Positions 6,595-17,793 of a stretch of DNA of 64,000 nt are shown one piece after another (position 1 is the first letter of the stretch; each line of letters begins with the position of its first letter). The notes beneath the pieces were generated by a model, which ran no database searches, was not told the DNA's origin, and saw nothing but the letters and a program-made list of their open reading frames with translations. Origin of the DNA: Pseudomonadota bacterium (GTDB lineage: Bacteria; Myxococcota_A; Bradymonadia; Bradymonadales; GCA-2716585); contig SYOX01000083.1 in assembly GCA_005804885.1 (NCBI GenBank), forward strand, positions 30,457 to 94,456, given 5' to 3'. The position numbers were made by a program, and so were the translations under genes.

Positions 6595-8124
6595 TCACTC
6601 GTCCGAGGCCTCGGGGCTCTGAAGCGCGATGGCTCTGAAGTCCTTCTCCCAGCGCTTGAGTTGCTTGCCGCTGACGCCGCCGAGCACCTCGATGGCGTGC
6701 CTGAGCCGGGCGCGCGAGAGGTCCGGGCCGAGGATCTCCATCGAGTGGTAGAGCGGGGTCGAGACGGTGCCGCCGGAGGTGGCCACGAAGATCGGCTTGT
6801 TGAAGAGCCGCGGCTTGATCGCCAGGGCCTCGGCCACCTTGGTGAGCGTCTCCTGGATGGCCTCGGCCTCCCAGCTGCGCAGCGCCTCCAGCGCCCAGAG
6901 CGAGAACTGGAGCCACTGGACGATGTCGGCCTGGGGCACCTTCTTCAAGTCCTTGTCTTTCTCTGTAAAATCAGCAACTTGAAGATCAAGCAACCCGGCA
7001 AAGAAGAAGGCCAGCGCCGGCCCCAGGTCGCTCAGCAGCCGGGTGCGGGGCTGGATCAGGGGGATGATCGGGGCCATGTACTCGGCGTTGAGCGCCCAGC
7101 CGCGCACGAGGCCGGCGAAGCCCGCGGCGTCGTAATCCTCGCGGATATAGCGCTCGTTGAGCCAGGTCAGCTTCTGGACGTCGAAGACCGGCCCGCCGAG
7201 CGAGACGCGCGAGAGGTCGAAGTGGGCGATCATGTCCTCCAGGGTGAACTTCTCGATCGTCTCGTCGGGCATCGACCAGGCCATCAGGCCCAGGTAGTTC
7301 GTCAGGGCCTCGGGCAAGAAGCCCATGCGCTGGTAGTAGAGGATGCTGGTGGGGTTCTTGCGCTTGCTCAGCTTGCTGCGGTCGGGGTTGCGAAGCAGCG
7401 GCAGGTGGCACAGCACGGGCGGCTCCCAGCCAAAATACCCATAGAGCAGCAGGTGCTTGGGCGCCGAGCTGATCCACTCCTCGCCGCGCAGCACGTGCGT
7501 GATCTGCATGTGGTGGTCGTCGACGACGTTGGCCAGGTGGTAGGTGGGCATCCCGTCGGACTTGATGAGCACCTGCATGTCGACCTGCGACCACGCGATC
7601 TCGATCGGCTCGCGGCGCAAGAAGTCGTCAAAGACGCACGAGCCCTCGCGAGGCACCTTCATGCGCACCACGTTGGGCTCGCCGGCCTCCAGCCGCCGCG
7701 CGACCTCCTGGGCCGACAGGTCGGCGCAGCGCCCGTCGTAGCCGGGGTTGATCCCGCCGGCCAGCTGCTCCTGGCGAAGCTCGCCGAGGCGCTCCGTGGT
7801 GCAGAAGCACCGGAAGGCGTGGCCCTTGTCGAGCAGGATCTGCGCGTGCTCGGCGTAGAGGTCAAAGCGCTCGCTCTGCCGGTAGGGGCCAAAAGGACCC
7901 CCGACGTCCGGCCCCTCGTCCCAGCTCAGCCCGGCCCACTTGAGCGCCTTGAGGATCATGTCCTCGGACTGGCGCGTGCTGCGGGCCTGATCGGTGTCCT
8001 CGATCCGCAGGATGAACTGGCCGCCCTGCTGGCGCGCGAAGCACAGGTTGAAGAGCGCGACGTAGGCGGTCCCCACATGGGGATCGCCGGTCGGAGATGG
8101 CGCAATCCGGGTTCGAACGGTCAT
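6595..8124 (-). CDS. gltX: Glutamyl-tRNA synthetase
   Basis: [49 protein letters not shown] plus LSKRKNPTS (KMSKS-type) motif. Confidence 0.97.
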
Positions 8125-8177
8125 TCAACGACTCCTTGATCAAGGGCGCGCGCGGGGGACGATGGAAGTGCAGACAT

Positions 8178-8194
8178 CAGGTTCGCTCAGTGAA
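8178..8194. repeat. 17-bp direct repeat, copy 1 (island flank)
   Basis: CAGGTTCGCTCAGTGAA, identical to 16978-16994. Confidence 0.8.
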
Positions 8195-8349
8195 AATGGT
8201 CGGGCAGGTGCAACGTAATGGTCGAGATCAAGTGCAAGAAGGTGGCTCGGGCCTGGTGGGCTCAGCGGCCGAGTCCCGGACCACCGATGAGCCGCTCAGG
8301 CGTGGATGTCGAAGTCCTCGTGCGCCATGACGGTCATCAGTGGCGGACT

Positions 8350-8760
8350 TCAGACCAGGGTCGGGCTCATGGAGAGGCGGACGTTGAGGACGCCCTCGAA
8401 GTCCGTGGAGACGAACTGGGCCTTGATGTAGTTGATGCCTCGCAGCGAGAGTTCAAAAACCTCCTCGACGTCGGTGTCGGAGGCGGCGTCGAAGACGAAC
8501 GTGAGGGCTGCAGCGCCGATGGGCGGGAAGTTCATCTTGTCGATGGACTGCAAGAGGGAAAAGGTGAATTTATTGTTGCCAGAGCCCGAGAAGGGCTTGT
8601 TGTCGGTGACGATGCGCAGCCTGAAGATGGCCTCGTTGATCGGGCGCACATCGAGGGCATCCTGATTGCGCGGCGTCCAGGACTGGGGAGCCAGGAGAGT
8701 TCCGGCGGGATGGCCCAGTGTGATCTGTTGATAGGGCAGCACGACGATGGCCATGGTCAA
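8350..8760 (-). CDS. Small PYQxITLG-family paralog C
   Basis: 136 aa; IVVLPYQQITLGHPAGTLLAPQSWTP, shared with the two genes just upstream. Confidence 0.75.
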   Translation of the reverse strand: MTMAIVVLPYQQITLGHPAGTLLAPQSWTPRNQDALDVRPINEAIFRLRIVTDNKPFSGSGNNKFTFSLLQSIDKMNFPPIGAAALTFVFDAASDTDVEEVFELSLRGINYIKAQFVSTDFEGVLNVRLSMSPTLV

Positions 8761-8778
8761 CCTCCGAGGGTGGCTTGG

Positions 8779-9174
8779 TCAGTTGTTCTTCTTCAAGGTC
8801 ATGACGGCCTTGAAAGCGATGGTGCCTTGAAAGTCGACTGATGTCAGTGTCACACGCAGAAATCGTGCGAAGTCTGATGCCGAGGCGAGGATGTCCTGAG
8901 TGAACACACCCCCTCCGGTGACGTTGACGGTCTGGGTGTCAAGCGGGGGAAAGTACTGCTTGTCGTTGGAATGCTGCAGATCGATGGTGAAGGACAGGCT
9001 GCCTGCGGGGGGGGAGAGGGTTTCGACGAAGTACTGGATGGAGACCAAGGTGTGGCCCAGGGCATCGTAGGCCTTCTCGGCGGGGGGGGTCCAGGACGAG
9101 GGGGCCGTCCGGGTGCCCCCGAGGTGGCCGAGGGTGATCAACTGGTAGGGCACGATCTCAACGATGGTGGTCAT
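8779..9174 (-). CDS. Small PYQxITLG-family paralog B
   Basis: 131 aa; TIVEIVPYQLITLGHLGGTRTAPSSWTPP; tandem with paralogs A and C. Confidence 0.75.
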   Translation of the reverse strand: MTTIVEIVPYQLITLGHLGGTRTAPSSWTPPAEKAYDALGHTLVSIQYFVETLSPPAGSLSFTIDLQHSNDKQYFPPLDTQTVNVTGGGVFTQDILASASDFARFLRVTLTSVDFQGTIAFKAVMTLKKNN

Positions 9175-9239
9175 GGGCTCCTCAGGCGTTGGGGCCTGGT
9201 CGCGGGGCGACGCCAGGCACGTTGATGCTCACCGTTTGC

Positions 9240-9887
9240 TCACCGTTTGCTCAGCTTGAGCAAGACTCTGAGAGCGAAGGTCTCAGGATCCGAGTTGAAG
9301 GAAACGAGTCGAGGTCGAAGGTAGCGGGCGAACTCGGCGATGTAGCGGGGGGTCTGGACGTTGATGGTTCCGCCGCCCGCAGTGATCGGCGTTTGAACCT
9401 TTGAGGAGGGGATCTCCTCGAAGACGAGGTTGTCCTCCGCGTGATCGACGGCAAACAACAGCCCACCGGGGTGGCTGCCCGTGGTCGGGACAAGCGCCTG
9501 GATGCTGACCTGGAGGATCCCGAAGTTGTAGCCTTCGGCGTCCACCGACTCCTCCCTGGGTCTGGCCCAGGTGTTGGGCGTCAAGCTCCCGCCGCTCCCT
9601 CCCAGTGTGATGGTCTGGTAGGGGATCAGTTCGATTTCCATGTCATCACCTTTTTGACGGCTCTTATAGGTCATGTTCTCAGATCCCTCAAGAGCCGAGT
9701 CCACATTGGGAGAGAGCGCTGCATGCGCGGTCTCTCCATTCGCCTCACTGTCGAGTTTTCGAGCCAGCCTCTCGATCAAGATCTCTCGCATCAGCCCGAA
9801 GCTGAATGAATTTTTCCGATCAGACCCCAAAAGTCTTGTCAAGAGGGCATCCACGGCACCCATCGCCTCGTTCCGGCTGTCTTGCAT
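9240..9887 (-). CDS. PYQxITLG-family paralog A with possible N-terminal helical extension
   Basis: ATG at 9887 preceded by GGAGG; alternative ATG at 9641 preceded by AAGGTGATGAC gives a 133-aa protein MEIELIPYQTITLGGSGGSLTPNTWARP matching paralogs B and C in size. Confidence 0.7.
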   Translation of the reverse strand: MQDSRNEAMGAVDALLTRLLGSDRKNSFSFGLMREILIERLARKLDSEANGETAHAALSPNVDSALEGSENMTYKSRQKGDDMEIELIPYQTITLGGSGGSLTPNTWARPREESVDAEGYNFGILQVSIQALVPTTGSHPGGLLFAVDHAEDNLVFEEIPSSKVQTPITAGGGTINVQTPRYIAEFARYLRPRLVSFNSDPETFALRVLLKLSKR

Positions 9888-9909
9888 GTCGGCGCCCTCC
9901 GGCTTCACC

Positions 9910-12900
9910 TTATCCTTGAGTTCGGTTCAGCATCCCCCAGATACTTGCAATTTGTTGGTTTCTTTCACCAACGTCAAGACTAGTAGTAGTTCCTATAACC
10001 TCAAAATTGATACTCAGCCAACGCTCAAACGTCCGCTCAAAAGATCTCAACCACATATCGCCCCTCACGCCAGAGTCAAAGCCAAATCTCAACCCTGCGA
10101 GGTTTAGATTGTTGTCGATTCCAAAAGCTTCTCTGCCAATAAATTCGTCCGGCAATCTTTCGGCGAGAATATTTCGACATCCAATAAACACGACCTGATT
10201 CGGATCTGATGGTTTTATCCCCCCGGTTCCGATAGCGGAATAAACAATCTCCGGATACAAGTCCTCCGATACGTTATTTTGGTTTGTTGGCTCTTGCCCA
10301 AACATGAACAACCGAGACTGCCTCACATGACTGGCGGGCGTTGCACTATGGCGAAAAACGTTAAAATGTAAATACTCGCGACTGTTGATCGTCAATCCAT
10401 CCAATGACGCATTAAAAAATATCCCCAAGCTGTTAGCACTGTTAAGGGATAGGGCCAGCTTAGAGTTAAAAGTTGACTCGCTAACAAAAATCTCCCCCCC
10501 CGTCACATGCAAGCCCTGATCAAAATCTTCGTGAATGTGGCATCCCGTCACAACCAACCGATTTGACTTGCTCGAACTCATTCCATAAATCGCCACAAAT
10601 TTGCTGAGTTGCTGTCTGTTGATTCTTCGAAGACCCTCATCCAAAGGCACCCCGTCAGGGCGAAAGCAGCAATTGACAAACTCAAGATGCTGAACATTTT
10701 CTGGGTCATTAGGAATCAAGAGATTGTATAAACCTCGAGCGTTCCGCCTTGTCTGAATTTCGACAGGGTTGTTTCCATCAGTGACAATGTTGAGATCGTC
10801 AATGACAACATTCGGATCCTCGACGATCGAGAAAGAGCAGTTTTGAAATGTGACGTTGTAAGGATTGATGATCCGACCGAACTCGCCTGCATTATGAAGT
10901 CCTGTAGCAATCCCGCTGTTCATCACTCGAACCGTCGAACCGCTGGCGCTGAGGTTGAAGGGTGGCGCATCGGATTGAACATTGTTGAGATACGCGGCGG
11001 CACCTTGTTTGAGGCCAATGTCCAAATCACCGTCCCTTAAGTGAATGTTTTCGCCCAGGAAACGTGAGGGCACGGCCCCATCCAGCTCGATGTCGATCCC
11101 ACTGCTCAGGAAGACATCCCCTCGTGCGATGTTTCGACCCTCAGTGGTCAAATTCTGGACCATGGCGTCCGTGGTCGCAGAGCCAGTCAAGGTCAAGCCC
11201 CCACGGAAGCAGTTGACTGTCTGGCAATCGGAGATCTGAGCCAGAGCATTACCCGCCACTGAAAAGCCATCGCCGCCACTGTTGTGAATAAAGCACCCTT
11301 GAAGGTTGATCAGCGCCTTACCCCGTTGCGCACCCATAAAGACCCCACTCATAAACTCCATCTGAAACTTCTCGAAACCCCTTCGATCACCATCATCGAT
11401 TAGAGATGAAAGATTCATATCAAAGTTAAATCCAAAGATGGAGAACAGACTAGAAGTTTTTAAAGGTTGATCATATGTCTGCGTTGTAAAACATCTGCCC
11501 AGATTAAACTGTCCATTATGGGTCAGCCTTGGACCCACCCGATTTTCATAATCTTCAAGGGCCACCGCTTCATTGATCACGGCCTCATTGAGGCAAGAAA
11601 TTATCCTGTTATTGCGATCATCGACGCTGACCAGACCATTAAGATCACATTCGATCCGTAATCGATTCGGGCCAATCATCTGTCCCGAAAGGTCTGGTTT
11701 TAGAGAGAGCTTCATCGAAGCTTCAATCACCGACTGCAAACTAATCAAATCCAACCTGATATCACTTTCTGGAAGAACCTGGATGAAGTCGCCTAATCCC
11801 CCAGCCACGCCTCTCACATTTCCTATGTCTAGGGGAGCGGGCGGGACATTAAAGCTTCTTAATCTTGCTGAAAGCTCGTTAAATACCGGAGTCGAATCCG
11901 CCTGGTGCCAATTGGATTGAGGGTCCAACTCGCCAGGGTCCAATTCGCCACGATGAAAATCAAATTTGGATCTTATCTCATTTGCGAACTCAGAGAGGCG
12001 CGCCAGATCTGTTTCATTATCATCGAGGTTTGCAGTAATTACCTGATCGCTGATATCGCCCTTGTGAAGGTCTTGAGCCGAAATGTGGCCGTTAAAGTCA
12101 TTTTTAAGAGCTATAAGAAGTGTGCGGACGGCTTCCGCTGTATCAAGAGGAATCTCTAAAGCATTGCCTGGGATGCTCTGGTGTGTTGTGTCCTTGGCTA
12201 TAGCTGAATCATTCCTTCTAAATTGAAAAGATCCACCATGAAGGGCAAGGCCAATCGACCCGCCAAACCGCCGCTGAACCACCTGGCTGTTGCGGTGTAA
12301 GTGGAGCACTACCCGAAGCTCGTTGGCAAGCCGCGCTATGCTCCCCAAGTCCGCCGTAGCCTCCAGCTCTGGAAGAACCTCCGAGGACGCCTGGCGGATC
12401 ACGGCCCCCAAACCGTCGTAGGTCAGACCCTCTTTTAGGTGAACCTCCGTGACCGTAAAGGTTCCCCGGAACTTGATCGTCTGCCCCAGCCGACCGCCGC
12501 GCTCTAAACGGGCGGCATCAGCGGCATTGACACAAGCCTGGATCGATAACGTCGTCGGTGTGATGCGCTCAAACTGCCACACGGTGTTAGGTGGAGTACC
12601 ACCGACCCTGTTCATCGTGACCATGGTGGACTCGGCCACACCACTCGCGGCACCCCACCATTGCGGGTAAAGAACCCCGTTCTTCAAAGGAGCTCGAACT
12701 TGCCGGGTGTCTCCCCTCACCCCACGCCACTCCTCTCCCCCAAAGATTCGGTAAGGCCCGGCCTGAACGTAGCCATGGATGACCGTCTCATAGCCATCGC
12801 CAATCGGTAAAAGTTGAGCGCCTGGATCGAAGACCAGCGTGATGTTCTCGTGAAACGTGACTGCGCTCTCAATTCGATATGTACCAGGAGAGAAGTAGAT

Positions 12901-13047
12901 GGTGCCTCCTCCAGCATCTTGCACGCTATCTGACAATGCCTTCAAACCAATGAAGTCGTTATGAGAACCATTGCCAAGGACAGGCTCATCAGGCACCAAA
13001 CGACTGTTCTTGGCGAAGTACCACTGGCCTTCAAGAGACATGATCAC
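9910..13047 (-). CDS. Large right-handed beta-helix (pectate lyase/tailspike-like) protein
   Basis: ~1045 aa; GGGTIYFSPGTYRIESAVTFHENITLVFDPGAQL ... VIHGYVQAGPYRIF ... LYPQWWGA, then N/G/S-rich beta-helix rungs; no N-terminal signal peptide visible. Confidence 0.75.
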   Translation of the reverse strand: MIMSLEGQWYFAKNSRLVPDEPVLGNGSHNDFIGLKALSDSVQDAGGGTIYFSPGTYRIESAVTFHENITLVFDPGAQLLPIGDGYETVIHGYVQAGPYRIFGGEEWRGVRGDTRQVRAPLKNGVLYPQWWGAASGVAESTMVTMNRVGGTPPNTVWQFERITPTTLSIQACVNAADAARLERGGRLGQTIKFRGTFTVTEVHLKEGLTYDGLGAVIRQASSEVLPELEATADLGSIARLANELRVVLHLHRNSQVVQRRFGGSIGLALHGGSFQFRRNDSAIAKDTTHQSIPGNALEIPLDTAEAVRTLLIALKNDFNGHISAQDLHKGDISDQVITANLDDNETDLARLSEFANEIRSKFDFHRGELDPGELDPQSNWHQADSTPVFNELSARLRSFNVPPAPLDIGNVRGVAGGLGDFIQVLPESDIRLDLISLQSVIEASMKLSLKPDLSGQMIGPNRLRIECDLNGLVSVDDRNNRIISCLNEAVINEAVALEDYENRVGPRLTHNGQFNLGRCFTTQTYDQPLKTSSLFSIFGFNFDMNLSSLIDDGDRRGFEKFQMEFMSGVFMGAQRGKALINLQGCFIHNSGGDGFSVAGNALAQISDCQTVNCFRGGLTLTGSATTDAMVQNLTTEGRNIARGDVFLSSGIDIELDGAVPSRFLGENIHLRDGDLDIGLKQGAAAYLNNVQSDAPPFNLSASGSTVRVMNSGIATGLHNAGEFGRIINPYNVTFQNCSFSIVEDPNVVIDDLNIVTDGNNPVEIQTRRNARGLYNLLIPNDPENVQHLEFVNCCFRPDGVPLDEGLRRINRQQLSKFVAIYGMSSSKSNRLVVTGCHIHEDFDQGLHVTGGEIFVSESTFNSKLALSLNSANSLGIFFNASLDGLTINSREYLHFNVFRHSATPASHVRQSRLFMFGQEPTNQNNVSEDLYPEIVYSAIGTGGIKPSDPNQVVFIGCRNILAERLPDEFIGREAFGIDNNLNLAGLRFGFDSGVRGDMWLRSFERTFERWLSINFEVIGTTTSLDVGERNQQIASIWGMLNRTQG

Positions 13048-14999
13048 ATAGCCTCATATGGTAAAAAGTAGATTTTCTCGTCTCTCGGGCGATCGTCGTC
13101 AGAGCCGGCGCATAAGTAGAACAGGCCGTGGTCTGGATTAAAACCTATGCATCCGCCAAGATTTCTAGCCTCATCCGTCAAAACAATATCTGCACTATCC
13201 ACCCGATATATCGATGGGGCTACAGGTCCGAAAAACACGTAAGTCCTGATCTTGTCGCCCTCAAATCTGCCCGTAAGAAACAAATCGCCAAATCCGTCCC
13301 TATTAATGTCTTTAGAGGCTAAATTGTATCCCACTTTCTCTCTCTCTATACCCCATCCGATGAAAGAAATATTTATGTCCTCGGAGTATGTTAGCTGTGC
13401 AGGAGGTCCAATAATTAGGTATGTGCGACCGCGATCATACCCACTGGGCGATGTCAGCATTAAATCGTCGAAACCGTCGTTATTTTGATCCTCAACGACT
13501 ATTGCCCTATTACCAAGAGCGGATCCAATGTTGCTACCTGCGACAACAGCATTGGCGCCGTCCAAACGATACCTGCCTTCCAATGGACCATAAAAGAGAT
13601 AGGCTCCGCCCTGCACCAAAATATTTGTGGGTCGGCTTCCTTCAGCCCCAATCAAGATATCCGCGATCCCATCGCCATTGACGTCCCCTGAGTTGATGGG
13701 AGCACTCCCAGCGTTAGTGGCGGAGTCAAACTCAAACATGGCATCGGCTTGAAGAAGCTCCGTTCGCTCTCGGAGCGGATTCAGCCACAGAGAAATACGA
13801 CCCCTTAAAGTTGACGTAAAGACAAAATCATCGGCTCCATCATCATTAATATCTCCTAATGAGTTGATGCCTGATCCGCTTATTAATGAGTTAGGAAGAT
13901 AATCAATACGCCAATCAGGCTCGTTAACCCTTAAACAATCGAGGAGGCCTTCATGATAATGATCGCAATAAACCCCTTCTTGCACAGGGCCGAAGTAGAT
14001 GCTATATCCAAGATAGTGATCGCTCGAAGCAACAATTACATCGTCGTATTGATCGCCATTAATATCTCCGAGCCCAACTTTAGCCGTTCTTTGAGCAAAA
14101 TACACCTGGGCTTCACCAGCAAGGCTAATCTCTCGATCTCGGGGAAAAGGCCCGTACATCAAGAACGCACTTGAGGGGATGTCATTCTCCACCAGGATGT
14201 CAAAAAATCCATCGTTGTTAACATCACCTGTCGCCAAAAACGAAGTGGTAGAATAAAGATCGATGTCCCTGAAGGTGTGTACCGCATAGTCCTGTACCTG
14301 TCTCGTTCGAGAGGCCACGCAAGCGGGCTCACCCGCACAGATGACCGTTTCGGTGTCCGTGCAGATATAATGATTACAGCCCCGACAAGACGAGCCTGGC
14401 TCGTGGGCCAGCTCCGCGCAGCCTCCACAGGCATTGATGCGCTCATCTTCACAGCGCAGCGCGTTGTTCCCGTCGCACTGCAAGGTCCCATTCGAACAAA
14501 GACCACAAGGGCTGCCTGGTTCTTGCTCCAGTTGGGACTGACCACCGCAAGCATTCAAGACCACACGGGCATCAGGCTCCACGTCAGCGAGATCAACGGC
14601 GGCATCTGTCTGGGCGTCTGGAACCCCTGGCTCTTCGTCGCTGGAGTCCAAGGCATCTGCCACCATGCTGTCGAGAACCTCAGCGTCCATGTCGCCCGAG
14701 TCAAAGACCTCCATTCCAAGGTCTGGCCCAACGTCCAGCACCTCCGTTTCTCCATCGCCTGGGTCAACCACGACATCCACCAGAGCGTCTGGGCTCTCAA
14801 CATCTCCATCGTCGGGATCGTCCGCATCGCGTGGCGTGTTCGATACATCCGGCTCCACCGCACCCGAATCCAACGAACGCTCTCCTTGGCTCGTTGGCGG
14901 ATCCGAACACCCCGCAGTAGACCAGCCAATCAAAAGCAAGCTCAGGGCCATCCGCCAAAGCGCAAATCCGACTCGTTGACTCTGAAGAAACCTTTTCAT
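13044..14999 (-). CDS. FG-GAP/VCBS (integrin alpha-like) repeat lipoprotein with Asp-rich linker and Cys-rich module
   Basis: Lipobox LIGWSTAGC; D/E/V-rich linker; repeats GDVNNDGFFDILVEND, GDINGDQYDDVIVASSD, GDINDDGADDFVFTS, GDVNGDGIADILIGAEG, DQNNDGFDDLMLTS, DINRDGFGDLFLTG. Confidence 0.85.
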   Translation of the reverse strand: MKRFLQSQRVGFALWRMALSLLLIGWSTAGCSDPPTSQGERSLDSGAVEPDVSNTPRDADDPDDGDVESPDALVDVVVDPGDGETEVLDVGPDLGMEVFDSGDMDAEVLDSMVADALDSSDEEPGVPDAQTDAAVDLADVEPDARVVLNACGGQSQLEQEPGSPCGLCSNGTLQCDGNNALRCEDERINACGGCAELAHEPGSSCRGCNHYICTDTETVICAGEPACVASRTRQVQDYAVHTFRDIDLYSTTSFLATGDVNNDGFFDILVENDIPSSAFLMYGPFPRDREISLAGEAQVYFAQRTAKVGLGDINGDQYDDVIVASSDHYLGYSIYFGPVQEGVYCDHYHEGLLDCLRVNEPDWRIDYLPNSLISGSGINSLGDINDDGADDFVFTSTLRGRISLWLNPLRERTELLQADAMFEFDSATNAGSAPINSGDVNGDGIADILIGAEGSRPTNILVQGGAYLFYGPLEGRYRLDGANAVVAGSNIGSALGNRAIVVEDQNNDGFDDLMLTSPSGYDRGRTYLIIGPPAQLTYSEDINISFIGWGIEREKVGYNLASKDINRDGFGDLFLTGRFEGDKIRTYVFFGPVAPSIYRVDSADIVLTDEARNLGGCIGFNPDHGLFYLCAGSDDDRPRDEKIYFLPYEAM

Positions 15000-15005
15000 C
15001 GACGG

Positions 15006-16806
15006 CTATTCCTGGTGGATCCTGGATAAAGCGGCCCACTGTGTTGAGTTTGATGTGCTGGTTCCTGATTGGACACACACCCACTCGTAGTCCTGACCAA
15101 CTCGCGGCGTTGTCAACCTCCAGATATCGCCCTTCAGACCTGCATCTGATGCCCGGGGTTCAGACGTTCCGTAAATCAAGCGCTGTCCAAGCGAATTGAT
15201 CAATCCTATGGGTGGGCCATGAATGATGTTTTCTTCATTGGTGAGCGTTGTCGAAAGATGTGTGATCTTGATTCGTCTTGAATCACTGAGGAAAGACAGA
15301 TAAGCAACACCTTCGTCGTCGGCCAACCTGGACAACTTCACATGGCCAATTCTAAGCAATGCTTCCGCCGTTGGATGAGCTAAAACTTCAATTCCAACTC
15401 TGGACTCCAGCAAGATTCCGTGGATCGTCGCCCTCAATCCGCACTTATAAAAAAGAATTCCCTTGTGAAGACCACTTCCAAATCTACAGTCCTTGATTGA
15501 GAGTTCGCTCTGGCTAGAACTTGTGCCGACCGAAACTATACCAATAAAGGTGTCTGTCAGCTGAATATTGTCAGAATTGTCCGACATTAAAAATTGACAA
15601 CTCGCAAGAGATATATACCCTTTGGCGTCTTCGGATTCAGGCCAAGCGAGCGTGAGCGCTGTCACAGCCTTGCTTCGCGAACCCGCGCCACGATGAATTA
15701 TGAAATCACAATTAGCGAGCGAGTAAAAATTTGACCCCGTGATTAGCGCTGATTTGTGAATATTGAATTCACAATTAGAGAACTTTGCCCTTCCTTCATC
15801 TCCTTTTAAGGTGAGCCCGTTGGACAATGTATTGGTAAACAACAGAGATGCCTGGTTGAATTGTGCTTCAATAGAACCAAACATTGAATTGCTGATAAAA
15901 GCCGTGCCGAATTGATCCTCTCCCTCCGGGACCAGTGAAAGCGACTCCAAGCGCAGTGTACCATCACACACAAAATTAGAAACTTGAAGGGACGTACCGT
16001 CAAGCATCCCATGAATCGAAGTGGCAACACCAAAAGCACGGCTGTTGATGACTTGTAACCGGAGCCCAGCGAGCGCCGTCAAGCCGACAAGGGAAGAATT
16101 CATAAAAGAGCAGTTGGACACCAGAACGTGGACTGGAAGATCTCCGGGCTCCAGAGTCAGTAAGCTCGTAGACTCAACATCATCAGAATCAATGTTGCCA
16201 AGATCGTCTTGATCGCCAAATGTGAATCCATAAATGGTGGTCAAGAGAGATAAGTCGACAGTGTGTGTCGCGATACGTGATGGCGAGAGATCCGTAAATC
16301 TCCGTGCCTTCTCCAAGATAGGTCTTCCCAAAAGGAAGTCTGACTGTTCTGCTGAACACATACTGACCAGAGATGAACCGAATGATTCCTGGGCCGCGCG
16401 GGAGGCTCTTGAGCATGAAGCTCATCCCACTGCTGTTCCCATCCGCAAGTGATTGAATGTTGTCGTTGACGCCAGAAAGTACCGATACACCCCACCACTG
16501 AGGGAAAATCTCGCTCCTGTGATTCCCGAGGCGAAATTTCCCACTTCCAGATGTTTGAAAGATTTGGTGAGGACCCGCCTGAATGTGGCCATGAATCACA
16601 ACAATGGCATTGCTGGCAACAAGAGTGGCTGCTTGATCAAAAATAATCTGAACGCTTTCGGGTATGTCGATGGAGGCTGTCAGAATGTGAGTGCCGTTCG
16701 AGAGAAAGACTGACCCCCCCCCCCTTTGCAAAATTCCGCCAATAACCCTCCGAAGAGATATCTCACTCTCGCCACCAGAGGGTATAATGTTCCAGAATTC
16801 TGCCAT
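15006..16806 (-). pseudogene. Second right-handed beta-helix protein, interrupted by a frameshift near 16240-16265
   Basis: 5' part (ORF 16189..16806) has GGGSVFLSNGTHILTASIDIPESVQIIFDQAATL ... VIHGHIQAGPHQIF ... IFPQWWGV; 3' part (ORF 15006..16361) continues as beta-helix in a frame offset by one nt. Confidence 0.65.
16714..16724. repeat. Poly-C/poly-G homopolymer (11 nt) in the coding region of the second beta-helix gene
   Basis: + strand gaCCCCCCCCCCCttt; read as AGG GGG GGG GGG (RGGG) on the minus strand. Confidence 0.9.
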
Positions 16807-16977
16807 AGGTATTCTATAGGTGGCGCTCTTCAGGGTATGAAAAAACCCCGATTCCCTTGTTGCGGTGCTTTAACCATAAGCGGCTGGCCCGTACCGGCTT
16901 TATCCCCATCTTCTCTCAGCATAGGCAAGCCCATCTCGACTGTCAAGCCTTGAAATCGAGCGCTTACCCACACGTCA

Positions 16978-16994
16978 CAGGTTCGCTCAGTGAA
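16978..16994. repeat. 17-bp direct repeat, copy 2 (island flank)
   Basis: CAGGTTCGCTCAGTGAA, identical to 8178-8194. Confidence 0.8.
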
Positions 16995-17316
16995 GGCCCT
17001 CCAGCAGAGTTCTCGCAGGCTGATGGCCTCAATGCAATGAGTCATCGAGCCCGTCAGTGACGTTGTTCTCTTGCATCACGAGGCAAGGGTTCCGCTGTCG
17101 AGGGGGGCCACAGGACGCCCTGTCTGGCGTCCCGAAGGGATCTTGGAGGCCGTCCTTGCCCCCCCCTCCAGGTCCTCGTTCGTTGAGCAAACCTGAGTGC
17201 AGACCTGCCCGCCGCCTCAGCATCCTTGTGCGCCCGGCAGGTTGGCGGTAACATACGCGCAGTTTGCCCCCGTTGACAACGCACGTCCTGCTCTGCGCGC
17301 ACCGCAGCAACCTCTC

Positions 17317-17793
17317 ATGCCCCACACCCCCGACAAGAACATCGCGCGCGCCCTGTCGACCTCGCCCTGCTTCGCCGGCCTGAGCCAGAGCGCCCTGGGC
17401 GTCGTGGCCGAGGCCGCCGTCGCAGCCCGCTTCGAGGCCGGCCAGTTCCTCCTGCGCGAGGGGCAGGCCGCCGATCGCTTCTTCGTCCTGCTCCAGGGCC
17501 GCGTCGCCATCGAGCTGCGCTCCTCCAACCGCGGCCAGGTCATCATCCAGACCCTCGAAGAGGGCGACGTCGTCGGCCTGAGCTGGCTCCACCCCCCCCA
17601 ACGCTGGATCTTCGACGCACAGGCCCTGACCTTCATCGACGCCCTGTCCATCGACGCCGACGCCATCATGGCGGCCTGCCGCCTCGACCCCGCCCTCGGC
17701 CTCGACCTCATGCACCGCTTCGCCGGCTGCGCCATCGACCAGCTCCAGGCCGCCCGCCTCCAGCTCCTCGAGTTCTACGGCGTCAAGGGCTGA
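17317..17793 (+). CDS. Cyclic nucleotide-binding (CAP_ED) domain protein
   Basis: CFAGLSQSALGVVAEAAVAARFEAGQFLLREGQAADRFFVLLQGRVAIELRSSNRGQVIIQTLEEGDVVGLSWL. Confidence 0.85.
   Translation: MPHTPDKNIARALSTSPCFAGLSQSALGVVAEAAVAARFEAGQFLLREGQAADRFFVLLQGRVAIELRSSNRGQVIIQTLEEGDVVGLSWLHPPQRWIFDAQALTFIDALSIDADAIMAACRLDPALGLDLMHRFAGCAIDQLQAARLQLLEFYGVKG

Follow-up and report, generated by a model that had tools for sequence, protein, structure and literature searches.

A probable 9-kb non-autonomous transposon with MITE-family ends inserted upstream of gltX in an uncultured high-GC bacterium

Gene content, composition and genomic context of the island

The region analysed, a stretch of 64,000 nucleotides hereafter called the window, contains an AT-rich island of six genes, which are all on one strand, as the original prediction had stated, namely the minus strand. 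It lies between gltX (6595-8124, minus strand; matched in 57 of 58 genomes searched, with a best identity of 67%) and a plus-strand gene coding for a cyclic-nucleotide-binding (cNMP) protein (17317-17793; Pfam PF00027, 2e-14). The three genes next to gltX encode small orphan proteins, namely s1 (8350-8760, 136 aa), s2 (8779-9174, 131 aa) and s3 (9240-9908, 222 aa), which are paralogous: s2 shares 27% identity with s1 and 36% with s3, and the C-terminal part of s3 is homologous to both s1 and s2. No Pfam or NCBIfam family matched s1, and a family model of s1-s3 recovered only the three island copies from 57 genomes of the class. The s2 protein additionally gave a weak match to a PHROG tail protein (E=0.006) and is predicted, at low confidence (AlphaFold pLDDT 54), to consist mostly of beta-strands.

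The remaining genes encode a large right-handed beta-helix protein of 1045 aa (9910-13047), with sub-threshold matches to the Pfam families Pect-lyase_RHGA_epim and Beta_helix and a PHROG tail-spike match (7e-8); a lipoprotein-like protein of 651 aa (13044-14999), which combines an Asp-rich linker with an FG-GAP beta-propeller (Pfam FG-GAP, 8.8e-20); and a smaller beta-helix protein (15006-16806), whose frame is broken near ACACACAC at 16261-16268, leaving two overlapping ORFs (16189-16806 and 15006-16361). The N-terminal frame of this broken gene is homologous to the 1045-aa protein, and its C-terminal frame shows a sub-threshold Beta_helix match; candidate readings of the ACACACAC tract are a pseudogene, an assembly slip or a phase-variable tract. 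The passenger products are probably cell-surface or secreted proteins. None of the ORFs in the island matched a transposase or integrase family, in agreement with the original prediction, and Rfam returned nothing beyond a sub-threshold snoRNA match.

The interval had also been described as AT-richer than its surroundings, and this is borne out both by overall GC content, which is about 70% outside, about 60% at 8.2-9.6 kb and 47-55% at 9.6-17.0 kb (best breakpoints at 9600 and 17080), and by third codon positions, where the flanking genes have a GC3 of 0.91-0.96, the three small genes one of 0.74-0.85 and the large island genes one of 0.49-0.54. Synteny of the island in close relatives, which had been named as a potential argument against its being an insertion, was not encountered: in G002, a genome of the same family, the genes YbjN, gltX, cNMP (57% identical to the gene at this locus), p18k and p19 follow each other in the same order and orientation with no island. 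The gltX-cNMP gap of G002 measures 0.87 kb and is occupied by one extra LOG-like gene, so that the comparison is one of gene order and not of a base-exact empty site. No tRNA gene was found at the island boundary.

A dispersed MITE family in the host genome

Exact copies of a 17-bp sequence occur in direct orientation at 8178-8194 and 16978-16994, precisely as originally reported. In the host assembly (9.86 Mb in 428 contigs, 84% complete) this 17-mer is present in 76 forward and 74 reverse copies at up to two mismatches, and its reversed control in none. Scatter of the 17-mer across the genome, which had been proposed as grounds for dismissing the island, is therefore real as far as the repeat by itself is concerned: with a density of about one per 66 kb, approximately one copy is expected in any 64-kb window, two copies in the same window are unsurprising, and the repeat alone is no proof of an island. 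The unit is upheld instead by the target-site duplication described below.

Most of the dispersed copies form inverted pairs with a spacing of 180-740 bp, whose interiors belong to a single mosaic family. Outside 22 of the 29 small pairs tested we detected duplications of 9-11 bp with an identity of at least 8/9; in 16 cases the duplication is exact. The dispersed copies thus define elements which are short, bounded by terminal inverted repeats (TIRs), present in high copy number and accompanied by target-site duplications, and by these sequence features they appear to constitute a MITE family with the TIR CAGGTTYGCTCAGTGAA that multiplied in the host genome. Given their length, the short elements presumably carry no transposase. 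In 25 further genomes of the order the family was not recovered, barring single chance-like matches. Searches with the TIR against 85,488 bacterial and archaeal genomes yielded 11 single matches without inverted partners (a rough chance estimate being 15), and viral contigs yielded two matches, which were likewise single. Among about 100 ends examined the gltX unit is the one complete cargo-bearing unit. At the locus L078 (C10:1-458) a 17-mer end is followed by an AT-richer, non-MITE interior that is cut by the contig edge; this is possibly a second cargo unit.

Boundaries of the unit and the target-site duplication

The original prediction placed the right boundary at the plus-strand copy 16978-16994, thereby overlooking an inverted copy of the TIR at 17179-17195 (minus strand, CAGGTTTGCTCAACGAA). 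The latter pairs with the left TIR at 8178-8194 (plus strand, CAGGTTCGCTCAGTGAA), whose sequence is exactly that of the MITE-family TIR; the two outer repeats, of 17 bp each, are identical at 14 of 17 positions, that is, with 3 mismatches. Directly outside this pair are found AGTGCAGACAT (8167-8177) and AGTGCAGACCT (17196-17206), which agree at 10 of 11 positions and define a duplication of the form AGTGCAGAC[A/C]T, in the same register as the 9-11 bp duplications of the MITE family. A score this high is attained by random pairs of window flanks at a frequency of 3.4e-4, and when the left flank was scanned against 63,970 positions of the window, 17196 was the sole non-self match of this quality. 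The inner pair, 16978/17195, shows no target duplication, the left flank of 16978 being dissimilar to the right duplication. Because the duplication sits outside 8178/17195 and the inner pair lacks one, the transposed unit would, on the evidence of the sequence, be 8178-17195, a length of 9,018 bp, with the copy at 16978 internal to it. Once it is taken out of the window along with one copy of the duplication, gltX and the cNMP gene stand 163 bp apart in divergent orientation. The GC content of the unit, 50-60%, compares with 70% for the genome, and its ends lie at or near shifts in composition: the right end close to the GC breakpoint at 17080, and the left end where GC and GC3 fall between gltX and s1-s3. 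The claim of an inserted cassette with IS-end-like boundaries is hence sustained by the TIR ends, the duplication and the gene order of G002.

The same observations bear on two other ways of understanding the repeats. Site-specific integration, in which the direct 17-bp repeats would represent attL and attR, had been suggested by the description of the boundaries as att-like and would accord with the exactness of these repeats; however, about 150 copies of the 17-mer are spread over the genome, no integrase family match and no boundary tRNA gene were found, and the duplication flanks 8178 and 17195 rather than 16978, such that we give this explanation next to no credence. An integron was also rejected, there being no integrase family match and the 17-mer being dispersed. 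It is, furthermore, highly improbable that a native AT-rich cluster of surface-protein genes came to lie by chance between unrelated TIR copies: although the genomic density of the TIR and the lowered GC of related modules elsewhere (GC3 0.60-0.80, see below) would be in keeping with this, the duplication at the exact edges of the TIRs is unique in the window, and G002 has this gene order with no island in it.

The two ends of the unit are not organized alike. At the left there is one TIR, for which no inner mate was found at up to 4 mismatches, and the sequence that follows it is unlike MITE interiors, which is clearly so for this end only. The right end carries the extra TIR and a dispersed repeat of about 90 bp (17002-17096, plus strand), and the 218-bp interior delimited by 16978-17195 is not MITE-like. 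Neither end groups with the approximately 95 MITE interiors compared. The 16978-17195 pair was accordingly rejected as a normal MITE, having no duplication and an interior unlike the family, and a composite with a MITE copy on both sides is ruled out at the left by the single TIR. Nevertheless, the extra TIR and the 90-bp repeat complicate the right end and leave room for a one-sided composite origin, wherein the 218-bp TIR pair next to the gene cluster moved the genes together with the lone far TIR. That the inverted pair has no duplication of its own is what one would expect if its other flank had stayed at the donor site, and MITE-flanked cargo is already known (PMC3934969, PMC4133298); set against this are the left end, which has one TIR and no MITE, and the presence of the 90-bp repeat within the 218-bp interior. 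We regard such an origin as possible but doubtful. Another scenario involves nesting: the duplication would stem from an initial insertion of a short MITE, whose ends were then driven apart when the AT-rich genes entered it by another route. This predicts the same outer ends and duplication as those observed, and MITEs of 180-740 bp with such ends are common, but a split MITE should leave parts of its interior on both sides, and at the left there is none beyond the 17-bp end. Together with the failure of either end to group with MITE interiors, this renders nesting improbable.

A proposed mechanism and the search for the transposase

Based on these observations we propose that 8178-17195 very probably forms a single mobile insertion cassette, a transposon which is non-autonomous and ends in the TIRs of the MITE family described above. 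A transposase, probably of the DDE type, would recognize CAGGTTYGCTCAGTGAA-type MITE ends and act on them in trans; it would have to be encoded elsewhere, because the unit encodes no recognized one. This enzyme would cut out or copy the unit, which would then insert between gltX and the divergent cNMP gene, its first base lying 54 bp upstream of the gltX start codon, and duplicate the target AGTGCAGAC[A/C]T. The passengers would be the module of beta-helix, FG-GAP propeller lipoprotein and beta-helix along with the three orphan small proteins. The original prediction had left the mobilization mechanism undefined; it can now be specified more closely as probable movement in trans via MITE-family ends.

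Among the PF01609 and PF00872 matches of the host genome (84% complete, 428 contigs) there is no parent transposase with MITE-type ends. The candidates rejected were an ISAs1 (PF01609) at L146 (C196, 7292-8545), which is a confirmed element with the ends CAGGGCAATCGCATCTAA; a second PF01609 match, which has a similar end of the CAGGGCAATCG type; and two IS256 elements, L209 (C74) and L210 (C105), which are without the island TIR. Repeats often break contigs, and as the assembly is moreover incomplete, the parent transposase may simply be missing from it. Further points that weigh against the proposal are the 3 mismatches between the outer TIRs, the additional TIR and the 90-bp repeat at the right end, the lack of a second complete cargo unit among about 100 ends, and the LOG-like gene at the G002 site.

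The 90-bp repeat and the origin of the cargo

The repeat of about 90 bp occurs seven times in the host genome and is absent from 56 further genomes of the class. Besides the copy in the window, two are located at C312:6394-8233 and one each at C53:50780-50875, C101:8630-8727, C400:14294-14399 and C29:2297-2389. Five of the seven copies abut AT-rich islands, and several have TA on both sides. The two copies on C312 are direct repeats (about 166 bp with shared flanks) that bracket a single AT-rich gene coding for a 360-aa lipoprotein-like protein.

Three-gene modules similar to that of the island, each with a large beta-helix protein, a propeller lipoprotein and a small beta-helix protein, were found in the host genome at C419:21883-28560 and C205:17052-23775, and a partial one, cut by the contig end, at C106:4150-8856. 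Their propellers are RCC1-like, as recognized by eye, whereas that of the island is of the FG-GAP type, and the paralogues on the three contigs share 24-27% identity with the 1045-aa protein. G002 contains a single match to the module (L190). Owing to the modules at the three host loci and the match in G002, this type of cargo is native to the bacterial family. The paralogous modules are also GC-poorer than the genome average, though less so than the island, with GC3 of 0.60-0.80, and the island copy is the most AT-rich of them all. Acquisition of the island from outside is plausible, being favoured by its composition and orphan genes; the remote paralogues at three other loci and the match in G002 count against it. 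One could go further and envisage in this lineage a genome-wide shuttle, dependent on a transposase in trans, for cassettes of AT-rich orphan surface-protein genes, with the TIR units and the 90-bp repeat forming one gene-capture system, but we deem this quite improbable.

Comparison with known systems

The host-genome ISAs1 element, like the MITE family, starts with CAGG; its TIR, however, is CAGGGCAATCGCATCTAA, such that the ends on C196 are not identical to those of the family, and no ISAs1 transposase was found between 17-mer ends. ISAba12-type MITEs (MITEAba12, PMC6382973) resemble the family in having TIRs of 16-17 bp and mostly 9-bp duplications; they differ in their GGCTTTGTTGCACAAA-type ends, compared to CAGGTTYGCTCAGTGAA in the host genome, where the elements are also larger and GC-rich. 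An integrase together with att cores at both edges, as in integrase-mediated islands, is not found at this locus.

Cargo units driven by MITEs have been documented previously (PMC4133298, PMC3934969, PMC6382973). In TIME-COMP and other MITE-flanked cargo, including Tn6645 with MITEAba12, genes are likewise carried by MITE-family ends with the duplication outside the outer ends, and TIME-COMP1 has a GC content below that of its replicon, as does the gltX unit. The gltX unit differs from TIME-COMP in that it has no MITE copy at the left, and thus not the full MITE at each end of a two-MITE composite, in its duplication of 11 bp rather than 5 bp, and in its ends, which are not of the Tn3 type.

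It is most reminiscent of the mobile insertion cassettes (MICs), which are transposase-less, TIR-bounded and passenger-carrying; they include the qnrS2 MICE in Aeromonas (PMC5444012), and MIC231 of Bacillus cereus, which is cited in PMC6542083. The gltX unit shares with these the TIRs at both outer ends, the duplication outside both, and non-autonomous passenger coding sequences without a transposase gene. It departs from them in its size of 9.0 kb, its six passenger genes, a TIR family restricted to the host genome, the lack of a parental IS among the PF01609 and PF00872 matches, and its chromosomal location in an uncultured high-GC bacterium. The locus illustrates how an AT-rich island seemingly without a mobility gene can be explained by looking for a target duplication and for miniature-transposon ends scattered elsewhere in the genome. 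It offers a clear 9-kb example, from an uncultured bacterium, of cargo other than antibiotic resistance on MITE-type ends, and makes the transposase of the approximately 150-copy family a concrete search target. In terms of known systems, the gltX unit is most readily classed as a large non-resistance mobile insertion cassette with its own TIR family, and no new category is required to accommodate it.
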